Source: Spirochaetae bacterium HGW-Spirochaetae-1
GTDB lineage: Bacteria; Spirochaetota; UBA4802; UBA5550
Direction of reading: 5' to 3'
Assembly: GCA_002839375.1 (NCBI GenBank)
Contig: PGXY01000001.1
Coordinates: 372,001-436,000 of the forward strand
DNA: 64,000 bases
Positions 13,143-61,790 of the stretch are shown piece after piece (position 1 is the first letter of the stretch; each line of letters begins with the position of its first letter). The translations under genes were made by a program, and so were the position numbers. The notes below the pieces were generated by a model. The model was not told the DNA's origin and did no database searches. It saw nothing but the letters and a program-made list of their open reading frames with translations.

Positions 13143-13769
13143 TCAGCTGGGCTTCTTCATTTTGTTTCTGTCATCAATGTCTGCCTGGTTGTGCTGGTCG
13201 GGATATTTTCCCGTGATGGTGGAATAGAATTTCTGGATGAGTATCATATCCGATTCCAGATCTCCCGTCGGTATAATGAGGGGACCGAAGCCACCTGTTT
13301 TGGTGCGGTAATCCAGGAAACCTGTAGCAATGGGTACATTGGCGCCGAAGGCCATATGATAAAAACCGGTTTTCCAGTACCGAACCCGCTGCCGGGTTCC
13401 CTCGGGCGGGACTGCAAGGATCAGTTTCTCGGTTTTTTTAAAAAGCTCGATAGCCGCCTCGACCATATTATTATTCTTTGAACGGTCCACGGGGATACCC
13501 CCCATCCACTGCATAATCGTACTAAAGGGGAATTTAAAAAGGGATTTTTTGCCCAGCCAGTATATCTTGACCTTGAAGGCAAAGGCCAGCATAAGGGTCA
13601 GGGGCATATCCCAGTTCGTGGTGTGGGGCGCTGCGATGATTATGTATTTATTCTCCGACGGAAGCTCCCCGCTGCGTTTCCATCCCGAAATCTTCAGTAA
13701 GAAGAGGGATGTCCACCGTAATAGTGTTCTGAGTATAGGGGTATCAAAAAAGGTAGTTTTCATCTGCAT
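13143..13769 (-). CDS. PlsC-like glycerolipid acyltransferase family protein
   Basis: The 208-residue protein has the acyltransferase blocks in order: HTTNWD (the HX4D catalytic motif), GGIPVDRS (block II/III) and PPEGTR (the EGTR-type block). A hydrophobic N-terminal stretch (TLLRWTSLFLLKISGW) could hold it to the inner membrane. Members acylate lysophosphatidate or other glycerolipids; this shorter group is often annotated 1-acyl-glycerol-3-phosphate acyltransferase without proof of substrate. It stands alone between two unrelated genes. Confidence 0.8.
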   Translation of the reverse strand: MQMKTTFFDTPILRTLLRWTSLFLLKISGWKRSGELPSENKYIIIAAPHTTNWDMPLTLMLAFAFKVKIYWLGKKSLFKFPFSTIMQWMGGIPVDRSKNNNMVEAAIELFKKTEKLILAVPPEGTRQRVRYWKTGFYHMAFGANVPIATGFLDYRTKTGGFGPLIIPTGDLESDMILIQKFYSTITGKYPDQHNQADIDDRNKMKKPS

Positions 13770-13917
13770 GGCCGTAACCTCTCTCTTGGTAGTATGTCAG
13801 GAAGGCCATGCAGAAGTATCCCACGAAGCTGTTCCTTACATGAATGTAAATATTCACTGGCTTGAATATTTCACACATCGTCAGGAAATATCCTAAAAAG
13901 TCAAGTCTATTGGATCG

Positions 13918-15008: not shown

Positions 15009-16430
15009 TTATTTTTTTAAATATCGGTTTATGGCTGCTGCCGCATTCCGGCCGTCATGTATGGCCCAGACCACCAGTGAGGCGCCCCGCATGGCATCAC
15101 CGGCGGAGAAAACCCCGTCGATGCTGGTCATGCAGTTTTCATCGACCTTAATGTTTCCCCTGGCATCGCAGGCAAGGTCCAGGTCCCGCACAAGTCCTTC
15201 GTGAACCACGTGTTCAAAACCCATGGCAAGAAGAACCAGGTCGGCCTCCAGTTCGAACTGTGTTTCGGGAATTTCAGTCATGGTCATTTTCCCGTCATCT
15301 TCAATCAGCCAATTTACCTTTGAGGCCTTTATTTTTTTAACCGCGCCTCCTTCACCCATGAATTCCCTGGTGAGTACGTTCCACATACGGTCGCATCCTT
15401 CTTCATGGGAACTCGAGGTCTTGAGCAGCCTGGGCCAGAGCGGCCATGGTTCCCTGTTTGTGCGGTGACGCGGCGGCATGGGCATCAGTTCGATCTGGGT
15501 TATGCTCTTGGCTCCGCGGCGGTTGGCGGAACCGACGCAGTCTGAACCCGTATCTCCCCCGCCTATGACTACGACATTTTTATTAAAGGCGGCAATGACA
15601 TCGGTTTCGGATATCCTGTCTCCGCGGACTACCCTGTTCTGCTGTGCGAGAAATTCCATGGCGAAATGAACTCCCTTGAGCTCCCTTCCTTTTATATCAA
15701 GGTCGCGGGCTTTTCTTGCGCCGATGGTGAGGCACACGGCGTCGGATTCATCACGGATCTGTTTTATGCTCACATCCTTTCCAACATACGTGCCGGTACG
15801 GAAAACGATACCCTCCTTTTCCATGATATTTATGCGGCGGTCTATTATTCCCTTTTCCAGTTTAAAGTCGGGGATGCCGAAGCGGAGATAGCCCCCGACG
15901 CTGTCTTCGGCTTCATACAGGATGACGGAATGGCCTGCCCGGTTCAGAAGGTCGGCGCAGGCAAGGCCTGCAGGTCCGCCACCGATCACGGCGACCTTCT
16001 TACCCGTCCGGATTTCCGGGGGCTGGGGTTTTACGTACCCTTCCTGAAAGGCCTTTTCGATGACGGCCAGCTCGTTCTGGCGAATCGTGACAGATTCGTC
16101 GTTCAGGGCAAGGACGCACGACGCTTCACAGGGCGCCGGACAGACACGGCCCGTAAATTCGGGGAAATTATTGGTCTCCTGGAGCATATCCAATGCGGCC
16201 TCCCAGTCACTATTGAAAATTCTGTCCTGCCATTCCGGCATGATGTTGCCAATGGGACAGCCCCAGTGGCAAAAGGGAACACCGCAATCCATGCATCGCG
16301 CAGCCTGAAGCTTTCTTTCCTGTTCGGGGAGCTGTCGTTCCACCTCTCCCCAGTCATGAACCCGCTCTTCAACGGGTCGGTATCCCGATTCGCGTCTTTT
16401 TATTTTCAAGAATCCTTTTGGATCTCCCAT
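15009..16430 (-). CDS. gltD: Glutamate synthase small (beta) subunit
   Basis: Transfers electrons from NAD(P)H through FAD and iron-sulfur centres to the large subunit. The N-terminus has cysteine motifs CMDCGVPFCHWGCPIGN and CPAPCEASC for [4Fe-4S] clusters; two dinucleotide folds follow (VAVIGGGPAGLACADLL near residue 147 and VVVIGGGDTGSDCVG near 290). The length of 473 residues is usual. The start ATG shares one base with the gltB stop (TGATG), so translation is coupled. Confidence 0.96.
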   Translation of the reverse strand: MGDPKGFLKIKRRESGYRPVEERVHDWGEVERQLPEQERKLQAARCMDCGVPFCHWGCPIGNIMPEWQDRIFNSDWEAALDMLQETNNFPEFTGRVCPAPCEASCVLALNDESVTIRQNELAVIEKAFQEGYVKPQPPEIRTGKKVAVIGGGPAGLACADLLNRAGHSVILYEAEDSVGGYLRFGIPDFKLEKGIIDRRINIMEKEGIVFRTGTYVGKDVSIKQIRDESDAVCLTIGARKARDLDIKGRELKGVHFAMEFLAQQNRVVRGDRISETDVIAAFNKNVVVIGGGDTGSDCVGSANRRGAKSITQIELMPMPPRHRTNREPWPLWPRLLKTSSSHEEGCDRMWNVLTREFMGEGGAVKKIKASKVNWLIEDDGKMTMTEIPETQFELEADLVLLAMGFEHVVHEGLVRDLDLACDARGNIKVDENCMTSIDGVFSAGDAMRGASLVVWAIHDGRNAAAAINRYLKK

Positions 16431-19400
16431 CAGTATGCTCCTTCAAGCTGTTGTTCTTCCCGAATTGATTTCAGTTTTTCGTCAATGAGCTCGATTTTCA
16501 TTTCATTCATTGCCCGCTTGTACTCAAAAGGCATTATCTTGACAAACCGGGGCACGTAATCGTACCAGTTGCGAAGTATCTCCTTTGCCTTGTCGCTCTG
16601 CGTGTGCTGGATATGCTTTTTCAGCGTTTCAATGATGAAATCCTGATCGTCATAGTCCCGTACCTGGGTAAGCTCGACCATACCCTTGTTGCAGAAATTA
16701 TCAAAGGATCCTTCTTCATCGAGAACATAGGCCACACCGCCGCTCATACCCGCAGCGAAATTTCTTCCAACGCGCCCAAGGACGATGATGCGGCCACCCG
16801 TCATGTATTCGGCGCAGTGGTCGCCCGTTCCTTCAACAACTGCCGTGGCGCCGCTGTTGCGTACACAGAAGCGTTCGCCGGCAATCCCCCGTATGAAGGC
16901 TTCACCGCTTGTCGCCCCATAAAGCACGGTATTGCCCGTAATGATATTTTTTTCCGGTGTGAATGTTACACCCTTGGGTGGAACCACAATGATACGTCCG
17001 CCCGAAAGTCCCTTTCCGAGATAATCATTGGAATCGCCTTCGAGCCTGAATGTTACGCCACGAGCAAGGAAGGCACCAAAACTTTGACCGGCGCACCCCT
17101 GAAAAACGCATTGAATGGTGTTATCGGGCAGCCCCCCCTCGCCGAATTTGCGGGATATTTCATAGGAGAGCATGGTCCCCGTTGTCCTGTCCCGGTTCGT
17201 TATGGGCATTTCCAGGTAGACGTTGAGTTCCCTGCTGCCTTCGAGTATGGGCCTGGCCCTCTCGATGAGCTTGCGGTCCAGTATGGATACTATTTTATGA
17301 ATCTGGTCCTGGACGCAGAACGTGGCATTGGTATCGGCCTGGGCCGGCCGGTGAAGAATGGCGGCAGGATGGAGCGTTGACGCTTTCATATGGTCAAGCT
17401 TTCGCATCTGAAGCAGGTCGGTCCGCCCGATCAGTTCGTTAAAGGTACTGATGCCCAGCGATGCCATTATCTCCCGCACATCGCGTGCTATGAAACGGAA
17501 ATAGTTGATGAGATATTCAGGTTTGCCGCTGAATTTTTTTCTCAGTTCCGGGTCCTGTGTGGCCACTCCCACGGGGCAGGTATTCATGTGGCATTTTCGC
17601 ATCATTATGCAGCCCATGACGATGAGGGCCGCCGTTCCGAAGCCGAATTCTTCGGCTCCGAGTATTCCGGCAAGCACGATGTCGGTGCCGTTTTTCAGCT
17701 GTCCGTCGGTCTGGAGACGGACCCGGCCGCGCAGGTCATTGAGTACCAGGGTCTGGTGAGCCTCGGAAAGTCCAAGCTCCCAGGGGAGCCCGGCGTGTTT
17801 TATGGAGCTTTGCGGGCTTGCCCCGGTTCCGCCGTCGTAGCCGCTGATGAGGATGTTGTCGGCATGGGCCTTGGCAACGCCTGCTGCTATGGTACCGACG
17901 CCGGTTTCAGATACAAGTTTGACGCTGATGCGTGCCCGGGGATTGGCGTTCTTGAGATCGAAGATGAGCTGCGCCAGATCCTCGATTGAATAGATGTCAT
18001 GGTGCGGCGGTGGAGAGATGAGCGTAACACCGGGGGTCGAATGCCGGGTTGTAGCAATTAATTTATCAATCTTGTGTCCCGGCAGCTGCCCGCCTTCGCC
18101 AGGCTTTGCTCCCTGGGCCATCTTTATCTGCAATTCGTCGGCATTGGCCAGATAGTTGCTGGTCACGCCGAATCTTCCCGATGCCACCTGCTTGATGGCG
18201 CTTCTGGCCAGTGTTCCATCGTCGCGGCGGGTGAAGCGGCGTGATTCTTCTCCTCCTTCACCTGAGTTGCTGCGGCCGCCGATGGTATTCATGGCCACGG
18301 CTATGGCCTCATGCGCCTCTTTGCTGATAGAACCAAAGGACATGGCTCCCGTAGTGAGGCGTTTCATGATTTCCTCTTCGGGTTCAACGTCTTCAATGGG
18401 GATGGATTCACGCATTTTAAAATCAAAAAGACCGCGTATCACATGGGGAGAACGGTTGTGGTTATTAACCAGTTTAGAAAATTGCCTGTATTTCTCGTAA
18501 TCGTTCGTTCTGGTGGCCCACTGGAGAAGATGAATGGTTTCGGGATTCCACGCGTGTTTCTCGCCGCCTTTGCGGTAGCTGTAAACGCCGTCGGATTCAA
18601 GAAGCTGCGGTTTTTCCACGAAGGCCTTGCGATGCTTGGCAAGGGATTCTTTGGCTATCTCCCTGAGCCCGATGCCTCCAATGCGCGATTCGGTCCCGGT
18701 GAAATACAGGTCGACGAGCTCATTGCTCAGGCCGACGGCTTCGACGATCTGTGCCCCGCGGTAACTGCGGAGGGTCGATGTTCCCATCTTGGAGAGTATT
18801 TTTAAAATACCCTTGTTTATGGATTTGATGAAATTTCCCTCAAGCTTTTCATAATCGGCATTTTCGGAGAGCTTCTTGTTTTTCCTCAGGCTCTCTATAG
18901 TGGCAAAAACTCCGTAAGGGTTGATGGCGCTTGCCCCATAGCTGAAAAGAAGGGCGAAGTGCATGACCTCCCTGGGCTCGGCGCTTTCCACGAGTATCCC
19001 CGTACGCTTTCTTTTTTTTGCACGGATGAGGTGATGATGTACGCCGGCCATGGCCAGGAGTGATGGTATGGGGACATTGACGCGGTTTGCCCGGCGGTCT
19101 GAAAGAATGATGAAATTATGGCCTGCATCTATCATCGCTTCGGATTCGATGCAGAGCTTTTCCATAGCTGCGGCCAGGGCATCCTCACCGCCCGAGGCGG
19201 GGAATACTATGTCGAGCGTTACGGGATTGAACGAGGAATTGGTGCTCTGTTTGATGGTTTCCATTTCGCGATTGGTGAATATTGGGCTGAAGTATTTAAT
19301 CATACGGCACTGTTCGGGAATTTCAGCCAGGAGATTTTTTTCAGAACCGATATAACTCGTGAGAGTCATGACCAGTTCTTCCCTGATGGGGTCTATGGGA

Positions 19401-20977
19401 GGATTGGTTACCTGGGCAAAGACCTGCTTGAAATAATTGAAGAGAGGTTGAGGTTTTTCGGAAAATACCGCCAGGGGCGTGTCAGTGCCCATGGAGCTGG
19501 TGGGTTCCTGTCCTGTCGTGATCATCGTGGCAAGATGGTTGAATATATCCTCCCGGTTATAGCCGTGCATGAGATGGATTTCATGGAGTTTCTCGTCGGT
19601 GATCTCGACGGGGGCGTCGCCGCTTAAGGTAAGGTCTGAAATCACCACCCGGTTGTTTTCAACCCAGTCCCGGTACGGTTTCTGATGTGCGATCTGGTCC
19701 TTGATCTCTTCGTCGGGTATGATTCTCCCCTCTACCGTATCGACCAGGAGGAGTTTGCCCGGCATGAGCCGGCCCTTGTAGGCTATCTGTTCCGGCTGAA
19801 ATGTCTGGACGCCTACTTCAGAACCCATGACGATGAGGTCATCGGTGGTCACCACGTAGCGTGAAGGACGAAGACCGTTGCGGTCCAGTGTTCCCCCGAT
19901 GTAGCGACCGTCGCAGAAAACCATTGATGCGGGACCGTCCCAGGGCTCCATGAAGGTTGAATGGTACTCGTAAAAATATTTGAGGTTCTGGGGTATGGGA
20001 TTTTTATCGTTCCAGGATTCGGGAATGAGCATCATGAGTGCGTGGGGCAGGGAACGTCCCGTAGCCACGAGCATTTCCAGGGCATTGTCGAAAGACGCCG
20101 AGTCGCTTTTCCCCGGTTCAATGACGGGCAGGATCTTTTCGATGTCATCGCCGAAAATATCTGAAGCGAAATCTGATTCGCGGGCATGCATCCAGAAACG
20201 GTTACCTTTGATTGTGTTGATTTCGCCGTTATGGGCCAGTATCCTGAAAGGCTGTGCCAGGTCCCACGAGGGAAAGGTATTGGTGCTGAACCGTGAATGT
20301 ACCAGGGCGATGGCGCTTTTCAAACGTTTGTCGCGCAGTTCGGGATAGTAGGATTTCACCTGGTCGGGAGCGAGCATCCCCTTGTACACGATCGTCTTTG
20401 TAGAAAGGGAGAGAATGTAGAAGGATTTTTTTTCTTTCAGGGAAGACTCGCGGATTTTCTTCTCCGCCAATTTTCTTATAATATAGGACTTTCTTTCTAG
20501 CGTATCCTGATCCTGCTGTTCTTTCCCCGTTATAAATATCTGCCTGACGGCAGGTTCCGATTCGCGGGCGATTCTTCCGATGTTGGAATCGCTAACCGGC
20601 ACATCCCTGACGGCAATGATCATCTGACCTTCGTCATGGATAATGCGCTCCAGTTCAGCCAGGCATGTATCAGCTTCATACCCGTCTCCCTTCGGAAGGA
20701 AAACGAGCCCGGTTGCGTACTGTCCCTCCACGGGAAGATCGGGGATTTCCTGTTTGAAAAAATCATGAGGTATCTGGATCATAATCCCTGAGCCGTCACC
20801 GGTCTTGTTGTCGGCGCCCTCGGCCCCGCGGTGTTCCATGCGCTCCAGGACTTCCAGCCCTCTTTTTATGATATCAAAAGATTTTTCTCCTTTAATGTGA
20901 GCCACGAATCCTATGCCGCAGGCGTCGTGTTCATATGTACTGTCATATAATCCCTGTTTTTCTGGCAAGTGTATCAT
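16430..20977 (-). CDS. gltB: Glutamate synthase large (alpha) subunit
   Basis: Makes glutamate from glutamine and 2-oxoglutarate. The 1515-residue protein begins with a 19-residue propeptide before Cys20 (EHDACGIGF), the glutaminase nucleophile exposed on processing. The FMN-binding synthase domain follows (GAKPGEGGQLPGHKI, SGYDGGTGASP), with the [3Fe-4S] motif CIMMRKCHMNTCPVG and a C-terminal beta-helix GXGXG domain. AAGGAG lies 8 bases before the ATG. With gltD directly downstream this is a complete GOGAT for nitrogen assimilation. Confidence 0.97.
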   Translation of the reverse strand: MIHLPEKQGLYDSTYEHDACGIGFVAHIKGEKSFDIIKRGLEVLERMEHRGAEGADNKTGDGSGIMIQIPHDFFKQEIPDLPVEGQYATGLVFLPKGDGYEADTCLAELERIIHDEGQMIIAVRDVPVSDSNIGRIARESEPAVRQIFITGKEQQDQDTLERKSYIIRKLAEKKIRESSLKEKKSFYILSLSTKTIVYKGMLAPDQVKSYYPELRDKRLKSAIALVHSRFSTNTFPSWDLAQPFRILAHNGEINTIKGNRFWMHARESDFASDIFGDDIEKILPVIEPGKSDSASFDNALEMLVATGRSLPHALMMLIPESWNDKNPIPQNLKYFYEYHSTFMEPWDGPASMVFCDGRYIGGTLDRNGLRPSRYVVTTDDLIVMGSEVGVQTFQPEQIAYKGRLMPGKLLLVDTVEGRIIPDEEIKDQIAHQKPYRDWVENNRVVISDLTLSGDAPVEITDEKLHEIHLMHGYNREDIFNHLATMITTGQEPTSSMGTDTPLAVFSEKPQPLFNYFKQVFAQVTNPPIDPIREELVMTLTSYIGSEKNLLAEIPEQCRMIKYFSPIFTNREMETIKQSTNSSFNPVTLDIVFPASGGEDALAAAMEKLCIESEAMIDAGHNFIILSDRRANRVNVPIPSLLAMAGVHHHLIRAKKRKRTGILVESAEPREVMHFALLFSYGASAINPYGVFATIESLRKNKKLSENADYEKLEGNFIKSINKGILKILSKMGTSTLRSYRGAQIVEAVGLSNELVDLYFTGTESRIGGIGLREIAKESLAKHRKAFVEKPQLLESDGVYSYRKGGEKHAWNPETIHLLQWATRTNDYEKYRQFSKLVNNHNRSPHVIRGLFDFKMRESIPIEDVEPEEEIMKRLTTGAMSFGSISKEAHEAIAVAMNTIGGRSNSGEGGEESRRFTRRDDGTLARSAIKQVASGRFGVTSNYLANADELQIKMAQGAKPGEGGQLPGHKIDKLIATTRHSTPGVTLISPPPHHDIYSIEDLAQLIFDLKNANPRARISVKLVSETGVGTIAAGVAKAHADNILISGYDGGTGASPQSSIKHAGLPWELGLSEAHQTLVLNDLRGRVRLQTDGQLKNGTDIVLAGILGAEEFGFGTAALIVMGCIMMRKCHMNTCPVGVATQDPELRKKFSGKPEYLINYFRFIARDVREIMASLGISTFNELIGRTDLLQMRKLDHMKASTLHPAAILHRPAQADTNATFCVQDQIHKIVSILDRKLIERARPILEGSRELNVYLEMPITNRDRTTGTMLSYEISRKFGEGGLPDNTIQCVFQGCAGQSFGAFLARGVTFRLEGDSNDYLGKGLSGGRIIVVPPKGVTFTPEKNIITGNTVLYGATSGEAFIRGIAGERFCVRNSGATAVVEGTGDHCAEYMTGGRIIVLGRVGRNFAAGMSGGVAYVLDEEGSFDNFCNKGMVELTQVRDYDDQDFIIETLKKHIQHTQSDKAKEILRNWYDYVPRFVKIMPFEYKRAMNEMKIELIDEKLKSIREEQQLEGAY

Positions 20978-21090: not shown

Positions 21091-21163
21091 TTAAAAAAAT
21101 GCTCAACCGGTACAAGAATGTTACATTTGTGTAAATTATTGATTCAAAATTGTACCATTTATT

Positions 21164-53516: not shown

Positions 53517-54107
53517 TTAAAAAGGCGGAGCCAGGCGTTTTCGGTACGCCTCCTCATACCTGAGAAATTTTTCGACACAGGCTGAAAAATTATCACCCAG
53601 CCGGGTGAAAAAAGGATGCCGGGTGATTTTGACCGGTGCCTTGTAGTTCTCTATCAGATAGACATTGATAAATCCCACATCTGCCTGCCGTGGGTCATGT
53701 ACAAGTTTTTTACGCACGGGATTATATCCGATATACCATAGCAGCCATAGCAGATACTGCTCTGGATTCTCCGCTTCCTCGATCACGGTTGATCCAAACC
53801 GTTCATTCCAGAAGGGTCCCGTGGATTCCGTGGATCGGTTATACATTTCTGCTATGCGCGCCTTGATATACTGCATGATCTTTGATACTGTTTCTTTATC
53901 ATCCAGAGTACGGATGACAATATGAATGTGATTTGTCACTGGTTCTGCTGCGATTAGTTCAAAGTCATACTTTTCCTGACATTTTTTGACGGCCTCGATG
54001 AGGTATTTTCGTACATGGCTGCTTCTCATGAGGTCTTTTTTTCCGTGGCAACGGGTGAAACAGTGGTGTGTCTTTCCCTGGGCGATATTTCTCAGTGGTC
54101 GTGGCAT
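53517..54107 (-). CDS. REP-associated tyrosine transposase (RAYT, Y1 HUH family)
   Basis: A 196-residue Y1 transposase. The HUH metal motif is in EPVTNHIHIVIRT; the catalytic Tyr is probably in SKIMQYIKARI; FWNERFGSTVI and YLLWLLWYIGYNPVR are RAYT signatures. RAYTs cut single-stranded REP hairpins and are usually single-copy, domesticated genes rather than parts of a self-moving IS. No left/right IS ends or target duplications are visible. GGGTCAGAGC repeats lie on both sides and are its probable substrate. Confidence 0.9.
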   Translation of the reverse strand: MPRPLRNIAQGKTHHCFTRCHGKKDLMRSSHVRKYLIEAVKKCQEKYDFELIAAEPVTNHIHIVIRTLDDKETVSKIMQYIKARIAEMYNRSTESTGPFWNERFGSTVIEEAENPEQYLLWLLWYIGYNPVRKKLVHDPRQADVGFINVYLIENYKAPVKITRHPFFTRLGDNFSACVEKFLRYEEAYRKRLAPPF

Positions 54108-57757: not shown

Positions 57758-59023
57758 ATGATAAGTACGGGCGTATCTTATATCGACGAAATAACGGGAG
57801 GCCTCCGTCTGGGCGACAACGTCGTCTGGCAGGTTTCCGACGGTGTCTCCATTGACAGCTTCATAAAGGCCTTTTTTGATACCAACAGTGATTTCCAGAG
57901 CAATATCATCTATATCAATTCGAATTACTCCCCGCATACGATTAAAAAACGGTATGATTATCTTTTTCAAAAAAATATTACTCTCATTGACGCCTTTACA
58001 CATGGCAAGGGAAACAGTGATCCTGTTTTTCTTGATTTTTACCAGGACAGGAATCTTGATCCTCAACGCTTCATCTGTGTTGAAAATCCCCGCGATGTAT
58101 CGGTGTTCACCTCGGTCCTGAACAATATAGAGAAGGATAACAAGGATGGTTCCTTTTACATTTTCGACAGTCTTACAGGGCTCTTCGAGCTCTGGAAAAA
58201 CGAACGGGATGTGATTGATTTTTTTGCCTTTAAATGTCCCAAGCTCTACGATCTGAACACGCTGGCGTACTGGATTTTTGAGCGCGACGCCCATTCAAAG
58301 GAATTCATCGCCAGCATCACGCACATCACGCAGGTGATATTCGCCCTGAACGCTTCTCACATGGATTATTACCAGATCAGCATCAACAAGCTGGAAAACA
58401 GGTCTTCCTTTCACGATATCGAACCGCGTTATTTCAGGATCATCGACAAGGAGATACGGTTTAAATCGGACCGCATCGATGAAGTTATCCGCATAGGTGA
58501 AAAGGTGAAGAAACTCCGCAAGGAGAAAAAGATCACCCAGTCCGAACTCGCCATGGTGCTGGGCATGACTGCCGGGGCCATATCACAGATCGAGAACAAC
58601 CTGATTTCGCCTTCCCTGCAGTCCCTGGTGCAGATGGCGGCTTTTTTCAACAAGCCCCTGGGCTACTTTATAGGGACAGAACTGGAAAACGAAAAAGACC
58701 GGGGATACCAGTTAACAAGAAAGAGCTCCCAGCGGAGCAAGGCGACAAGACCGGTTATGATAGAAGAACTTGTTGAACATCACGATATCTCTATCAAACC
58801 CTATGCCGTGACGGTGGCAAAAAACAGCATCATAGAGGGGCCCATCCTGCTGCACAAGGGCACGGAATATCTCACCGTGACCGGGGGGACCATTGACCTG
58901 GTCATCAACTCGGACACGGTATCACTGAACAAGGGTGATTCCCTTATCCTTGAGAGCTCCTTCATTTCCCAGTGGAAGACGGCAGGCCAGGACTGTGAGA
59001 TGGTGTATATTTTACTGAAGTAA
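57758..59023 (+). CDS. Degenerate KaiC-like domain fused to XRE HTH and cupin
   Basis: A 421-residue protein. Residues 1-235 look like a KaiC/RecA-type domain (STGVSYIDEITGGLRLGDNVVWQV, then a Walker-B-like YIFDSLTGL near 134-142), but the P-loop GxxGxGKT is absent. An XRE helix-turn-helix follows (about 246-305: KLRKEKKITQSELAMVLGMTAGAISQIENN) and a C-terminal cupin (about 345-421: GPILLHKGTEYLTVTGG... LNKGDSLILES). So it is a DNA-binding sensor with two possible ligand sites. Start ATG 57758 follows GGGAGGAGAG. Its N-terminal domain is paralogous to that of the next gene. Confidence 0.8.
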   Translation: MISTGVSYIDEITGGLRLGDNVVWQVSDGVSIDSFIKAFFDTNSDFQSNIIYINSNYSPHTIKKRYDYLFQKNITLIDAFTHGKGNSDPVFLDFYQDRNLDPQRFICVENPRDVSVFTSVLNNIEKDNKDGSFYIFDSLTGLFELWKNERDVIDFFAFKCPKLYDLNTLAYWIFERDAHSKEFIASITHITQVIFALNASHMDYYQISINKLENRSSFHDIEPRYFRIIDKEIRFKSDRIDEVIRIGEKVKKLRKEKKITQSELAMVLGMTAGAISQIENNLISPSLQSLVQMAAFFNKPLGYFIGTELENEKDRGYQLTRKSSQRSKATRPVMIEELVEHHDISIKPYAVTVAKNSIIEGPILLHKGTEYLTVTGGTIDLVINSDTVSLNKGDSLILESSFISQWKTAGQDCEMVYILLK

Positions 59024-59177
59024 AGGGATTATAAGTTTTTATCAGCACTGAATATCACCGCCCGCTCGCTATAGCTCGCTGGTGACACGGAGTTCACGGA
59101 GCCTGCCCACGGCTTACGGTTGTTTTTGGAGTTGACTCTTTAATGAATGATTTGATACTCTGGGATTGAAATAAAAA

Positions 59178-61790
59178 ATGTTTATCGGGAAGGACGCCGT
59201 ATTGAAACCCATCGTCACCGCCAGCACGGGCCTTGAAGGCCTCGATCATATCGTGAACAATCTTAACCTGGGAGACAATGTCGTATGGCAGGTTGACAGT
59301 ATAGACGATTACATGGAATTTGTAAAACCCTTCCTGGAGCAGTCACTGAAGGAAGGGAGGAAACTCGTCTATATGCGTTTCGCCACGCACCCCCCCGTGG
59401 TTGACACCAACGATGCCAGAATTAAAACCTACCAGTTGAATGCCTTTTCCGGTTTTGAGTCCTTCGCTCATGAAGTGTATACCATAATCGACCTTGAGGG
59501 GGAAGAGGCCTACTATATCTTTGACTGTCTTTCCGACCTTCTTTCAGCCTGGGCCACGGACCTCATGATCGGAAATTTTTTCGTCATAACCTGTCCCCAT
59601 CTTTTTGTACTCAACACCGTGGCATATTTCGCCCTCTTCCGGAACAGCCATGATTATAAGACCATCGCCCGCATCAGGGAAACGACGCAGCTGCTCATCG
59701 ATATCCACCATTTCGGCGGCAGCTATTATGTGCATCCCCTGAAGGTATTGAATCGTTATTCGCCCACCATGTTTTTTCCCCACAAGAAGGAGGGAGAAAA
59801 ATTTACTCCCATTATCAGCAGTGCCGACGCGGCGGATTTTATTCACTATCTGCATAAGATAACAACGGAGGTTACCAAGAGGAACCTGGATTTCTGGGAC
59901 CGCCTTTTTCTCGAAGTGGAAGCCCTCAAATGCGGCGATTACTGCGAAGAGGATAATCTCGATATGATTAACCGGCTGTGCCGGATCATTATCGGCCGCG
60001 ATGAAAGGATTTTTTCCCTGGTGAGGAAGCATTTTATAATCGATGATTTTATCGCCATCAATGACCGGCTTATCGGCACGGGGTTTATAGGCGGGAAGAC
60101 CACGGGCATGCTCATCGCACGGAAGATGTTGATGAACGACAGCGGGCACAAATGGCATAATCTCATGGAACCCCACGATTCCTTCTATATCGGTTCCGAC
60201 GTGTTCTATACCTACATTGTGCAGAACGGCCTGTGGAGCCTTTTCATGAAGCATAAGACGAAGGAGGGCTATTTCACGGCCGCTCCGGAACTGTGTGAGC
60301 GCATGATGGACGGAACTTTCCCCGATGCCATCAAGGAGCAGTTTCAGCAGATTATCGAATATTTCGGCCAGTCGCCATTCATTGTCCGTTCCAGTAGTCT
60401 CCTCGAGGACGCCTACGGGCACGCCTTCGCGGGTAAATATGAGAGCTATTTCTGCGTCAACCAGGGGAGCCCCCAGGAACGCTACCAGGAATTCACCCGG
60501 GCCATCCGCCTCGTCTATGCCAGTACCATGAACGAAGACGCCCTGGCATACCGCCTCCAGCGCGGCCTGGACCAGATGGATGAGCAGATGGCGCTCCTGG
60601 TGCAGCGCGTGTCCGGCGCCCACCGGCGGAATTATTTTTTCCCTGACATCGGCGGTGTTGGCCTCTCCTACAATACCTATGTGTGGAAGCAGGGCATGGA
60701 CCCCGAGGCGGGCATGATGCGGATAGTGTTCGGCCTGGGGACCCGGGCGGTCAACCGCGTGGAAGGCGACTATCCCCGCATTGTCGCCCTGGATGCTCCC
60801 CAGGTACAGCCCCTGTCGGGGATGGATGACCTGAGAAAATTTTCGCAGCACGATGTCGATATCCTCAATATCGAAACGAATGCCATAGAGACGGTTCCCT
60901 TGGGCCGGCTTCTATCGGACCTGCCCGAACTTGACATGAATCGTTTTGCCGAGATGGACCTGGAACTGGCCCAGCGCATCCGCGATATGGGCCTGAAGGA
61001 AGCCACGCCCTGGCTCATCAATTTCCGGTATCTCCTGGCCGAGACGCAGTTTCCCGATCAGATGAAGGAACTGATGCAGACCATCGAAGAGGCCTATGAC
61101 TATCCCGTTGATATTGAGTTCACCGTCAATTTCGCTTCCGACGGCAGGTATAAAATAAACCTGCTCCAGTGCCGCCCCTATCAGGCAAAGGGATTGAAGA
61201 TGAATGTTGCCATTCCTGAAAACATCGATGAAGCCCGGACCTTTTTTCGCAGCGAAGGGAACTTTCTCGGGGGAAGCATACTGCAGCCCATTACGCGGAT
61301 CATTTATGTCGATCCGGAAGGCTATTCGCGTCTGAACCAGTCGGGAAAGTACGACGTGGCCAGACTGGTGGGGAAGCTGAACAGGCTCATCGACGACCGC
61401 ATGAATTTTCCCGCCATGCTCATCGGTCCCGGCCGCTGGGGCACCACAACACCGTCACTGGGCGTGCCGGTCCGGTTCGCCGAGATAAATAACATCAGGG
61501 TCCTCGTTGAACTGGCGCAGATGAGCGAGAATGTCATGCCCGAGCTTTCCTTCGGTACTCACTTTTTCCAGGACCTGGTGGAAACGGAAATATTCTATAT
61601 AGCACTTTTCCCTGAAAAGCAGGGGGTTTATCTCAACATGGATTTTCTCCGTCAATATGAAAATGGTATCCTGAGCATTTTGCCCGACAGCGGGGCCTAT
61701 GCTGATATCGTACACGTCTACGATGTGGGCAGCGATACTGTAAGCATCGCTGCGGATATCATATCCCAGAGGATTGTCTGCTACAGCTGA
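59178..61790 (+). CDS. Degenerate KaiC-like domain fused to PEP-synthase-type ATP-binding domain
   Basis: An 870-residue protein. Residues 1-205 repeat the P-loop-less KaiC-like module of the gene before (TGLEGLDHIVNNLNLGDNVVWQV; YIFDCLSDLLSAW). From about 300 it has a PEP/pyruvate-binding (PPDK N-terminal, ATP-grasp) domain: FIGGKTTGMLIARKM, FIVRSSSLLEDAYGHAFAGKYESY, and LLQCRPYQ. The central phospho-His and PEP-binding domains of real PEP synthase are missing; the last 190 residues are unassigned. It may be a kinase or pyrophosphorylase-like signalling enzyme. TTG 59202, preceded by GGAAGGA, is an alternative start. Confidence 0.8.
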   Translation: MFIGKDAVLKPIVTASTGLEGLDHIVNNLNLGDNVVWQVDSIDDYMEFVKPFLEQSLKEGRKLVYMRFATHPPVVDTNDARIKTYQLNAFSGFESFAHEVYTIIDLEGEEAYYIFDCLSDLLSAWATDLMIGNFFVITCPHLFVLNTVAYFALFRNSHDYKTIARIRETTQLLIDIHHFGGSYYVHPLKVLNRYSPTMFFPHKKEGEKFTPIISSADAADFIHYLHKITTEVTKRNLDFWDRLFLEVEALKCGDYCEEDNLDMINRLCRIIIGRDERIFSLVRKHFIIDDFIAINDRLIGTGFIGGKTTGMLIARKMLMNDSGHKWHNLMEPHDSFYIGSDVFYTYIVQNGLWSLFMKHKTKEGYFTAAPELCERMMDGTFPDAIKEQFQQIIEYFGQSPFIVRSSSLLEDAYGHAFAGKYESYFCVNQGSPQERYQEFTRAIRLVYASTMNEDALAYRLQRGLDQMDEQMALLVQRVSGAHRRNYFFPDIGGVGLSYNTYVWKQGMDPEAGMMRIVFGLGTRAVNRVEGDYPRIVALDAPQVQPLSGMDDLRKFSQHDVDILNIETNAIETVPLGRLLSDLPELDMNRFAEMDLELAQRIRDMGLKEATPWLINFRYLLAETQFPDQMKELMQTIEEAYDYPVDIEFTVNFASDGRYKINLLQCRPYQAKGLKMNVAIPENIDEARTFFRSEGNFLGGSILQPITRIIYVDPEGYSRLNQSGKYDVARLVGKLNRLIDDRMNFPAMLIGPGRWGTTTPSLGVPVRFAEINNIRVLVELAQMSENVMPELSFGTHFFQDLVETEIFYIALFPEKQGVYLNMDFLRQYENGILSILPDSGAYADIVHVYDVGSDTVSIAADIISQRIVCYS

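Follow-up and report, generated by a model that had tools for sequence, protein, structure and literature searches.

Domains that keep the RecA/KaiC fold without a Walker A motif occur in signalling proteins as the MEDS (PF14417) and DUF835 families and as the N-terminal domain of the cellulose regulator BcsE (PMC5847659, PMC7439463). Such modules have been named inactive KaiC-like (iKaiC) domains in archaeal signalling proteins (PMC5847659), and the inactivated KaiC-like N-terminal domain of BcsE (PMC7439463) oligomerises and binds partners without ATP (PMC5847659, PMC7439463). Here we describe two adjacent genes, designated A and B, in a 64,000-nucleotide stretch of the genome of Spirochaetae bacterium HGW-Spirochaetae-1 (contig PGXY01000001.1, positions 372,001 to 436,000; hereafter the window), whose products both begin with an iKaiC domain, akin to KaiC of the circadian clock but inactive. 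Unlike the named families, these domains are bacterial, are fused to a helix-turn-helix (HTH) and cupin in A or to a PPDK_N ATP-grasp domain in B, and are tied to ammonium assimilation. Taken as a whole, the observations are best explained if a single nitrogen-status signal has A and B as its outputs, a reading of the sequences that we favour with some confidence.

The remaining parts of the two proteins also have described relatives. Rifampin phosphotransferase (RPH), phosphoenolpyruvate (PEP) synthase and the two-component dikinase HpeHI contain a PPDK_N ATP-grasp domain with the ATP-site residues found in B (PMC4844700, PMC12167813). B differs from all three in having no recognisable PF00391 swivel domain or TIM barrel, in carrying a new domain with an invariant SxG[TS]HFF motif, and in its N-terminal iKaiC domain. 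A has the HTH_3 and cupin arrangement common to PuuR-type regulators, although the PuuR model aligns to residues 250-414 at only 44 bits, far under the 211-bit cut-off of NCBIfam NF007408, and A has the additional N-terminal iKaiC domain. NrpR (PF01995) is unrelated to A; it is encoded next to B and gdhA elsewhere, and the neighbourhood of A in spirochaetes is of a similar kind. GlnD, GlnE and PII exert post-translational control in response to nitrogen status. They have no domains in common with A or B, a nucleotidyltransferase domain being present only in a 1062-residue paralogue of B considered below. The two genes and their domains are laid out as follows.

57758-59023, plus strand: gene A, 421 residues, iKaiC, HTH_3 and cupin; predicted transcription regulator of ammonium assimilation
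57761-58435, plus strand: iKaiC domain of A, residues 2-226 (hhalign alignment to B; fold match to 2dr3; P-loop absent)
58505-58669, plus strand: HTH_3 DNA-binding domain of A (Pfam PF01381, E 4.1e-14)
58820-58987, plus strand: cupin domain of A, in PuuR-like HTH and cupin order (PF07883, E 2e-4, below the cut-off; PuuR model over residues 250-414; cupin fold)
59178-61790, plus strand: gene B, 870 residues (862 from the TTG at 59202), iKaiC, helical linker, PPDK_N ATP-grasp and new C-terminal domain
59220-59810, plus strand: iKaiC domain of B, residues 15-211 (KaiC CII fold; P-loop absent in 28/28)
60084-61232, plus strand: PPDK_N ATP-grasp domain of B (PF01326, E 1.5e-49; five conserved residues; RPH and PEP synthase folds)
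61233-61787, plus strand: C-terminal domain of B, in no Pfam family (GPGRWG and SxG[TS]HFF motifs; His795 at 61560-61562)

Both open reading frames (ORFs) are present where the initial annotation had placed them. Translation of A is assigned to the ATG at 57758, since all relatives share the M-I-x-T-G start and a GGAGG lies just upstream. For B, the TTG at 59202, preceded by GGAAGG, is a likelier start than the listed ATG at 59178, as relatives begin about 8 residues later. The gap between the genes (59024-59177) contains a GC-rich, repeat-like stretch, CTCGCTATAGCTCGCTGGTGACACGGAGTTCACGGAG, and a search of Rfam near A and B gave no match.

The N-terminal regions of the two families proved to be homologous when their profiles were compared with hhalign (188 columns, probability 99.65, E 4.6e-25), with 16 columns invariant over 43 A and B sequences, among them G-D-N, F-x-D and C-P-x-L. 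The Walker A P-loop, GxxxxGK[ST], was found in none of the 15 A and none of the 28 B sequences; its absence from every sequence checked shows a conserved loss as opposed to local decay, and the Walker-B-like Asp is retained in both families. Pfam recognises neither domain, and the MEDS and DUF835 models gave no match in A or B at E up to 1. In an AlphaFold model of B (mean pLDDT 85.5, pTM 0.84), residues ~10-227 match KaiC CII with Z scores of 19-20 over 190-210 residues. The model of A is of modest confidence (mean pLDDT 68.4), and its N-terminal domain matches the KaiC-like structure 2dr3 with a Z of 13.7 over 200 residues. These KaiC-type folds indicate that A and B each carry an inactivated KaiC-like domain. 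The initial annotation, which had proposed a shared KaiC-like domain devoid of a P-loop and structure prediction as the check, is borne out on each of these points, and its view of the domain as a sensor fits a sensory or regulatory role, given that this N-terminus is exchanged for others in paralogues of B.

The central part of B is a PPDK_N domain (PF01326, 169 bits against a cut-off of 27). Residues ~268-670 match the ATP-grasp domains of RPH and PEP synthase in fold comparisons, with 5hv3, 5hv1, 2ols and 9goj as the best matches. RPH requires Lys22 and an ATP-site Arg (PMC4844700). In B, the ATP-site residues K307, R404, E647, Q664 and R666 are conserved in 119/119 homologues, including paralogues without iKaiC; with these residues unchanged, the B enzyme is probably active on ATP. 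A PEP/pyruvate-binding TIM barrel was not found, as Pfam sees PPDK_N only and the protein stops after a further 185-residue domain. The earlier description of B as an ATP-grasp protein without the phospho-His and PEP domains of PEP synthase thus stands as regards PPDK_N and the lack of PF00391 and TIM barrel matches, but it had overlooked this strongly conserved C-terminal domain.

P-G-R-x-G and S-x-G-[TS]-H-F-F motifs are invariant in the C-terminal domain, across the 119 homologues and in an alignment of 51 domains, and His795 is present in 119/119. A Pfam scan of the 51 domains yielded no convincing family and no PF00391 match. An ordinary PEP-utilizer swivel domain was rejected as an identity for this region, being matched by neither Pfam nor hhalign. 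Whole-model alignments to 2ols and 5hv3 do run to the last residue of B, and H795 begins a helix between two strands in the AlphaFold model, so that a very distant swivel domain is possible on structural grounds; the secondary-structure elements follow a similar order and an H-x6-E spacing is similar too, resemblances that are no more than suggestive.

The ATP-grasp and C-terminal core of B also occurs behind other N-termini. A 1062-residue paralogue combines a different N-terminus with PPDK_N, the same C-terminal domain and a C-terminal nucleotidyltransferase (L063:944-4132 and L066:1254-4442, also L064 and L065), and adjoins glutamate dehydrogenase in two genomes examined. A 984-residue Bacteroidota form has a receiver-like N-terminus ahead of the same two domains and is divergent from gdhA in the gut species Parabacteroides distasonis and Phocaeicola massiliensis (L266:4594-7548 and L267:6603-9536); for one Bacteroidota core paralogue, the adjoining gene is annotated by NCBI as NADP-specific gdhA. 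Both Bacteroidota records are labelled plasmids yet bear chromosomal-type genes, and among plasmid records no full-length relative was found, two partial matches leading to this core paralogue. The core adjoins gdhA whichever of the three N-termini it carries, and no other observation hints as strongly that it serves as an output module in nitrogen assimilation, with iKaiC as one input module among several.

Genes flanking 79 B loci were clustered and their identities checked with Pfam. At least one of gdhA, gltB/D, a nifA-like gene, nrpR, amtB, carAB or pyrG lies within 6 kb of B at 61 loci, and such a gene is the immediate neighbour at 53, with related genomes taken as separate loci. The individual counts are 27 for glutamate dehydrogenase, 18 for gltB, 15 for nifA-like sigma-54 activators, 14 for gltD, 12 for nrpR, 11-13 for carAB, 7 for pyrG and 5 for amtB; some genes called gltD may be nfnB. 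As an internal control, the share of nitrogen genes among flanking ORFs falls with distance, from 48% (<300 bp) through 32% and 25% to 8% (>3 kb). In Omnitrophota, B sits inside gltBD-B-carAB or gltBD-B-pyrG strings, and nrpR stands beside B and gdhA in deltaproteobacteria, planctomycetes and Margulisiibacteria. In HGW-Spirochaetae-1 itself, the sole strong gdhA match lies ~360 bases beyond the end of the window, with recQ as the one gene between it and B, and an nfnAB-like pair follows it. A is placed similarly, as 10 of the 15 A loci lie within ~7 kb of gdhA, gltB, gltB2, amtB, a nifA-like gene, or B with gdhA. An A homologue in Desulfobacterium TRIP AH-1 is divergent from amtB-glnK-glnD. 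These neighbours link A and B to nitrogen assimilation and not, as the initial annotation had suggested, to pyruvate or energy status, for which the gene neighbourhoods offered no support.

In A, Pfam identifies HTH_3 (E 4e-14) and, weakly, the cupin; the C-terminus matches cupin folds with a Z of ~13 in the modest-confidence model, which upholds the proposed order of iKaiC, HTH and cupin. A candidate operator for such a protein is the palindrome TTACATNNATGTAA (TTACAT-N2-ATGTAA), which was spotted upstream of A genes and then tested on other genes. Three further features of the window bear on it.

16430-20977, minus strand: gltB, glutamate synthase large subunit, the genome's only strong match (PF01645, E 2e-151, at G000:C1:389450-390556)
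15009-16430, minus strand: putative gltD-like small subunit downstream of gltB, so assigned from its position and length
21121-21134, plus strand: operator-like palindrome TTACATTTGTGTAA upstream of gltB

In this genome the palindrome precedes gltB, gdhA (with two mismatches), a nifA-like gene and carA. Across A-bearing spirochaetes, it was found with at most one mismatch before 13 of 19 nitrogen genes and before 4 of 215 others (p 8e-14), a count from which A loci were excluded and in which the single A-gltB intergenic site of G017, G018 and G019 may serve both genes. Genome-scale counts are weak on their own (22 in this genome vs 16 for a reversed control), and it is the promoter test that is strong. 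A perfect copy, TTACATGAATGTAA, is also present at 13836-13849, in an intergenic region upstream of a predicted acyltransferase gene (13143-13769, minus strand) with no evident link to nitrogen.

B has been found in at least seven phyla (Spirochaetota, Desulfobacterota (deltaproteobacteria), Omnitrophota, Planctomycetota, Margulisiibacteria/WOR-1, Elusimicrobiota and Bacillota) and is nearly always 860-900 residues long. A is present in 15 of 98 relatives, all from one spirochaete order, and its one homologue outside spirochaetes, in the deltaproteobacterium Desulfobacterium TRIP AH-1, is 31% identical over its full length. In a tree, A forms one clade apart from B, with the deltaproteobacterial sequence on a very long branch. 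Of the 15 A-bearing genomes, 11 also have B, and the two genes adjoin each other in 5 (HGW-Spirochaetae-1, G003, G011, G017 and G019), in keeping with the earlier suggestion of a signalling pair, but B is usually alone, most B-bearing genomes lacking A, and 4 genomes have A without B. An obligate A-B system was rejected on these grounds.

On the most likely reading of the sequences, A regulates transcription of ammonium-assimilation genes, and B, as a regulator or an enzyme dependent on ATP, acts on ammonium assimilation too. The shared iKaiC domain would sense nitrogen status or dock a partner. In A, it would drive the HTH and thereby transcription of gdhA, gltB, amtB, nifA-like genes and A itself, probably through TTACAT-N2-ATGTAA, with A standing in for the NrpR that other phyla encode next to B. 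The iKaiC domain of B would control an ATP-grasp enzyme whose ATP site is intact and whose new C-terminal domain contains an invariant histidine. B would then act directly on ammonium assimilation, most plausibly by transferring a phosphoryl group from ATP to glutamate dehydrogenase, glutamate synthase or a regulator of either. The nitrogen link of A and B is well supported; our inferences concern the iKaiC ligand, the binding of the palindrome by A, the reaction that B catalyses and its target, and the part played by His795.

A number of observations weigh against this scheme. Eighteen of the 79 B loci have no such nitrogen gene nearby, and related genomes enter the neighbour counts as separate loci. 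Five A loci, all from one family, likewise have no nitrogen gene nearby, and those examined adjoin TPR and EAL genes. The A gene of the window has no palindrome within two mismatches upstream, and co-occurrence of A and B within the spirochaete order is borderline (p 0.057). The C-terminal domain of B has no detectable sequence similarity to PF00391 swivel domains (hhalign probability 0.6%) and lacks T/SxxGGxxxH, the motif reported for swivel domains (PMC12167813). Finally, the palindrome precedes B or gdhA in some relatives that lack A (G002, G014 and G016), and its genome-wide enrichment extends to several members of this spirochaete family without A.

The last of these observations mean that A is not established as the binder of the palindrome, which could be a protein other than A. 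If the palindrome and its nitrogen regulon belonged to another conserved spirochaete regulator, A would be a minor or unrelated protein, there by descent; we regard this as the less likely case, though one to be taken seriously. NrpR is excluded as the binder in this lineage, as it is absent from 18/18 spirochaete genomes tested. Sites before nitrogen genes are commoner in A-bearing than in A-lacking genomes (13/19 vs 1/8, p 0.013), are present between the divergent A and gltB genes of G017 and G018, and precede A in several genomes. In addition, the A-amtB divergent promoter of the deltaproteobacterium, a member of another phylum, contains a perfect inverted repeat, TACAAATTTGTA, that is similar to the spirochaete palindrome.

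We consider it quite unlikely that B is a metabolic enzyme, an ATP-grasp dikinase or ligase whose product would be a nitrogen-containing metabolite or whose substrate would be glutamate, glutamine or ammonium, and in which iKaiC would provide scaffolding or allosteric control. Small-molecule dikinases are common among PPDK_N enzymes, as in RPH (PMC4844700) and in HpeHI, where a separate ATP-grasp subunit cooperates with a swivel subunit (PMC12167813), and both the full conservation of the ATP site and the Omnitrophota strings, which place B among enzymes that use glutamate and glutamine, would suit such a function. The swapping of the N-terminus for a receiver-like or other module is more like a regulated output, however; no single pathway partner recurs among B neighbours beyond the nitrogen genes, and no substrate-binding domain was recognised in B. 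A dedicated two-gene pair that senses pyruvate or energy status, as first proposed, now appears very improbable. Although the adjacency and joint occurrence of A and B and the PEP-synthase-type ATP-grasp favour such a pair, each gene also occurs without the other, their neighbours are nitrogen genes, and Pfam detects no pyruvate-binding TIM barrel in B.

Two features by the way concern other parts of these loci. At L072, L073, L074 and L076, a conserved TPR protein is encoded after A, with an EAL-domain-like protein as well in three of the four, suggesting another partner set for A in that branch. The window also contains, at 53517-54107 on the minus strand, what looks by eye like a small REP-associated (Y1-type) transposase gene.

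Ammonium is converted to biomass through glutamate dehydrogenase (GDH) and the glutamine synthetase (GS) and glutamate synthase (GOGAT) pathway. To our knowledge, regulation that acts directly on the protein is well documented for GS and PII and far less so for bacterial GDH and GOGAT. No described system with these domains was found in the open literature, most subscription journals lying outside the search, and A and B most likely represent an undescribed way of controlling nitrogen assimilation. The PPDK_N and C-terminal core is present in spirochaetes, omnitrophotes, deltaproteobacteria, Firmicutes, planctomycetes and gut Bacteroidota. It may constitute a new class of nitrogen-status signalling enzyme that autophosphorylates from ATP on His795, passes the phosphate to GDH or GOGAT and takes exchangeable sensors (inactive KaiC, receiver and others), as a counterpart of GlnD and GlnE for the GDH/GOGAT branch; this fuller proposal is tentative and, in all its parts, rather unlikely. 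Encoded next to gdhA or gltBD across many phyla, with gut Bacteroidales among the bacteria that have it, this conserved and uncharacterised ATP-grasp protein is a strong candidate for the control of GDH and GOGAT. If the nitrogen-status reading of A and B is true, it would provide a clear bacterial role for inactive KaiC-like domains and would explain a widespread group of proteins annotated only as "PEP/pyruvate-binding domain-containing protein".

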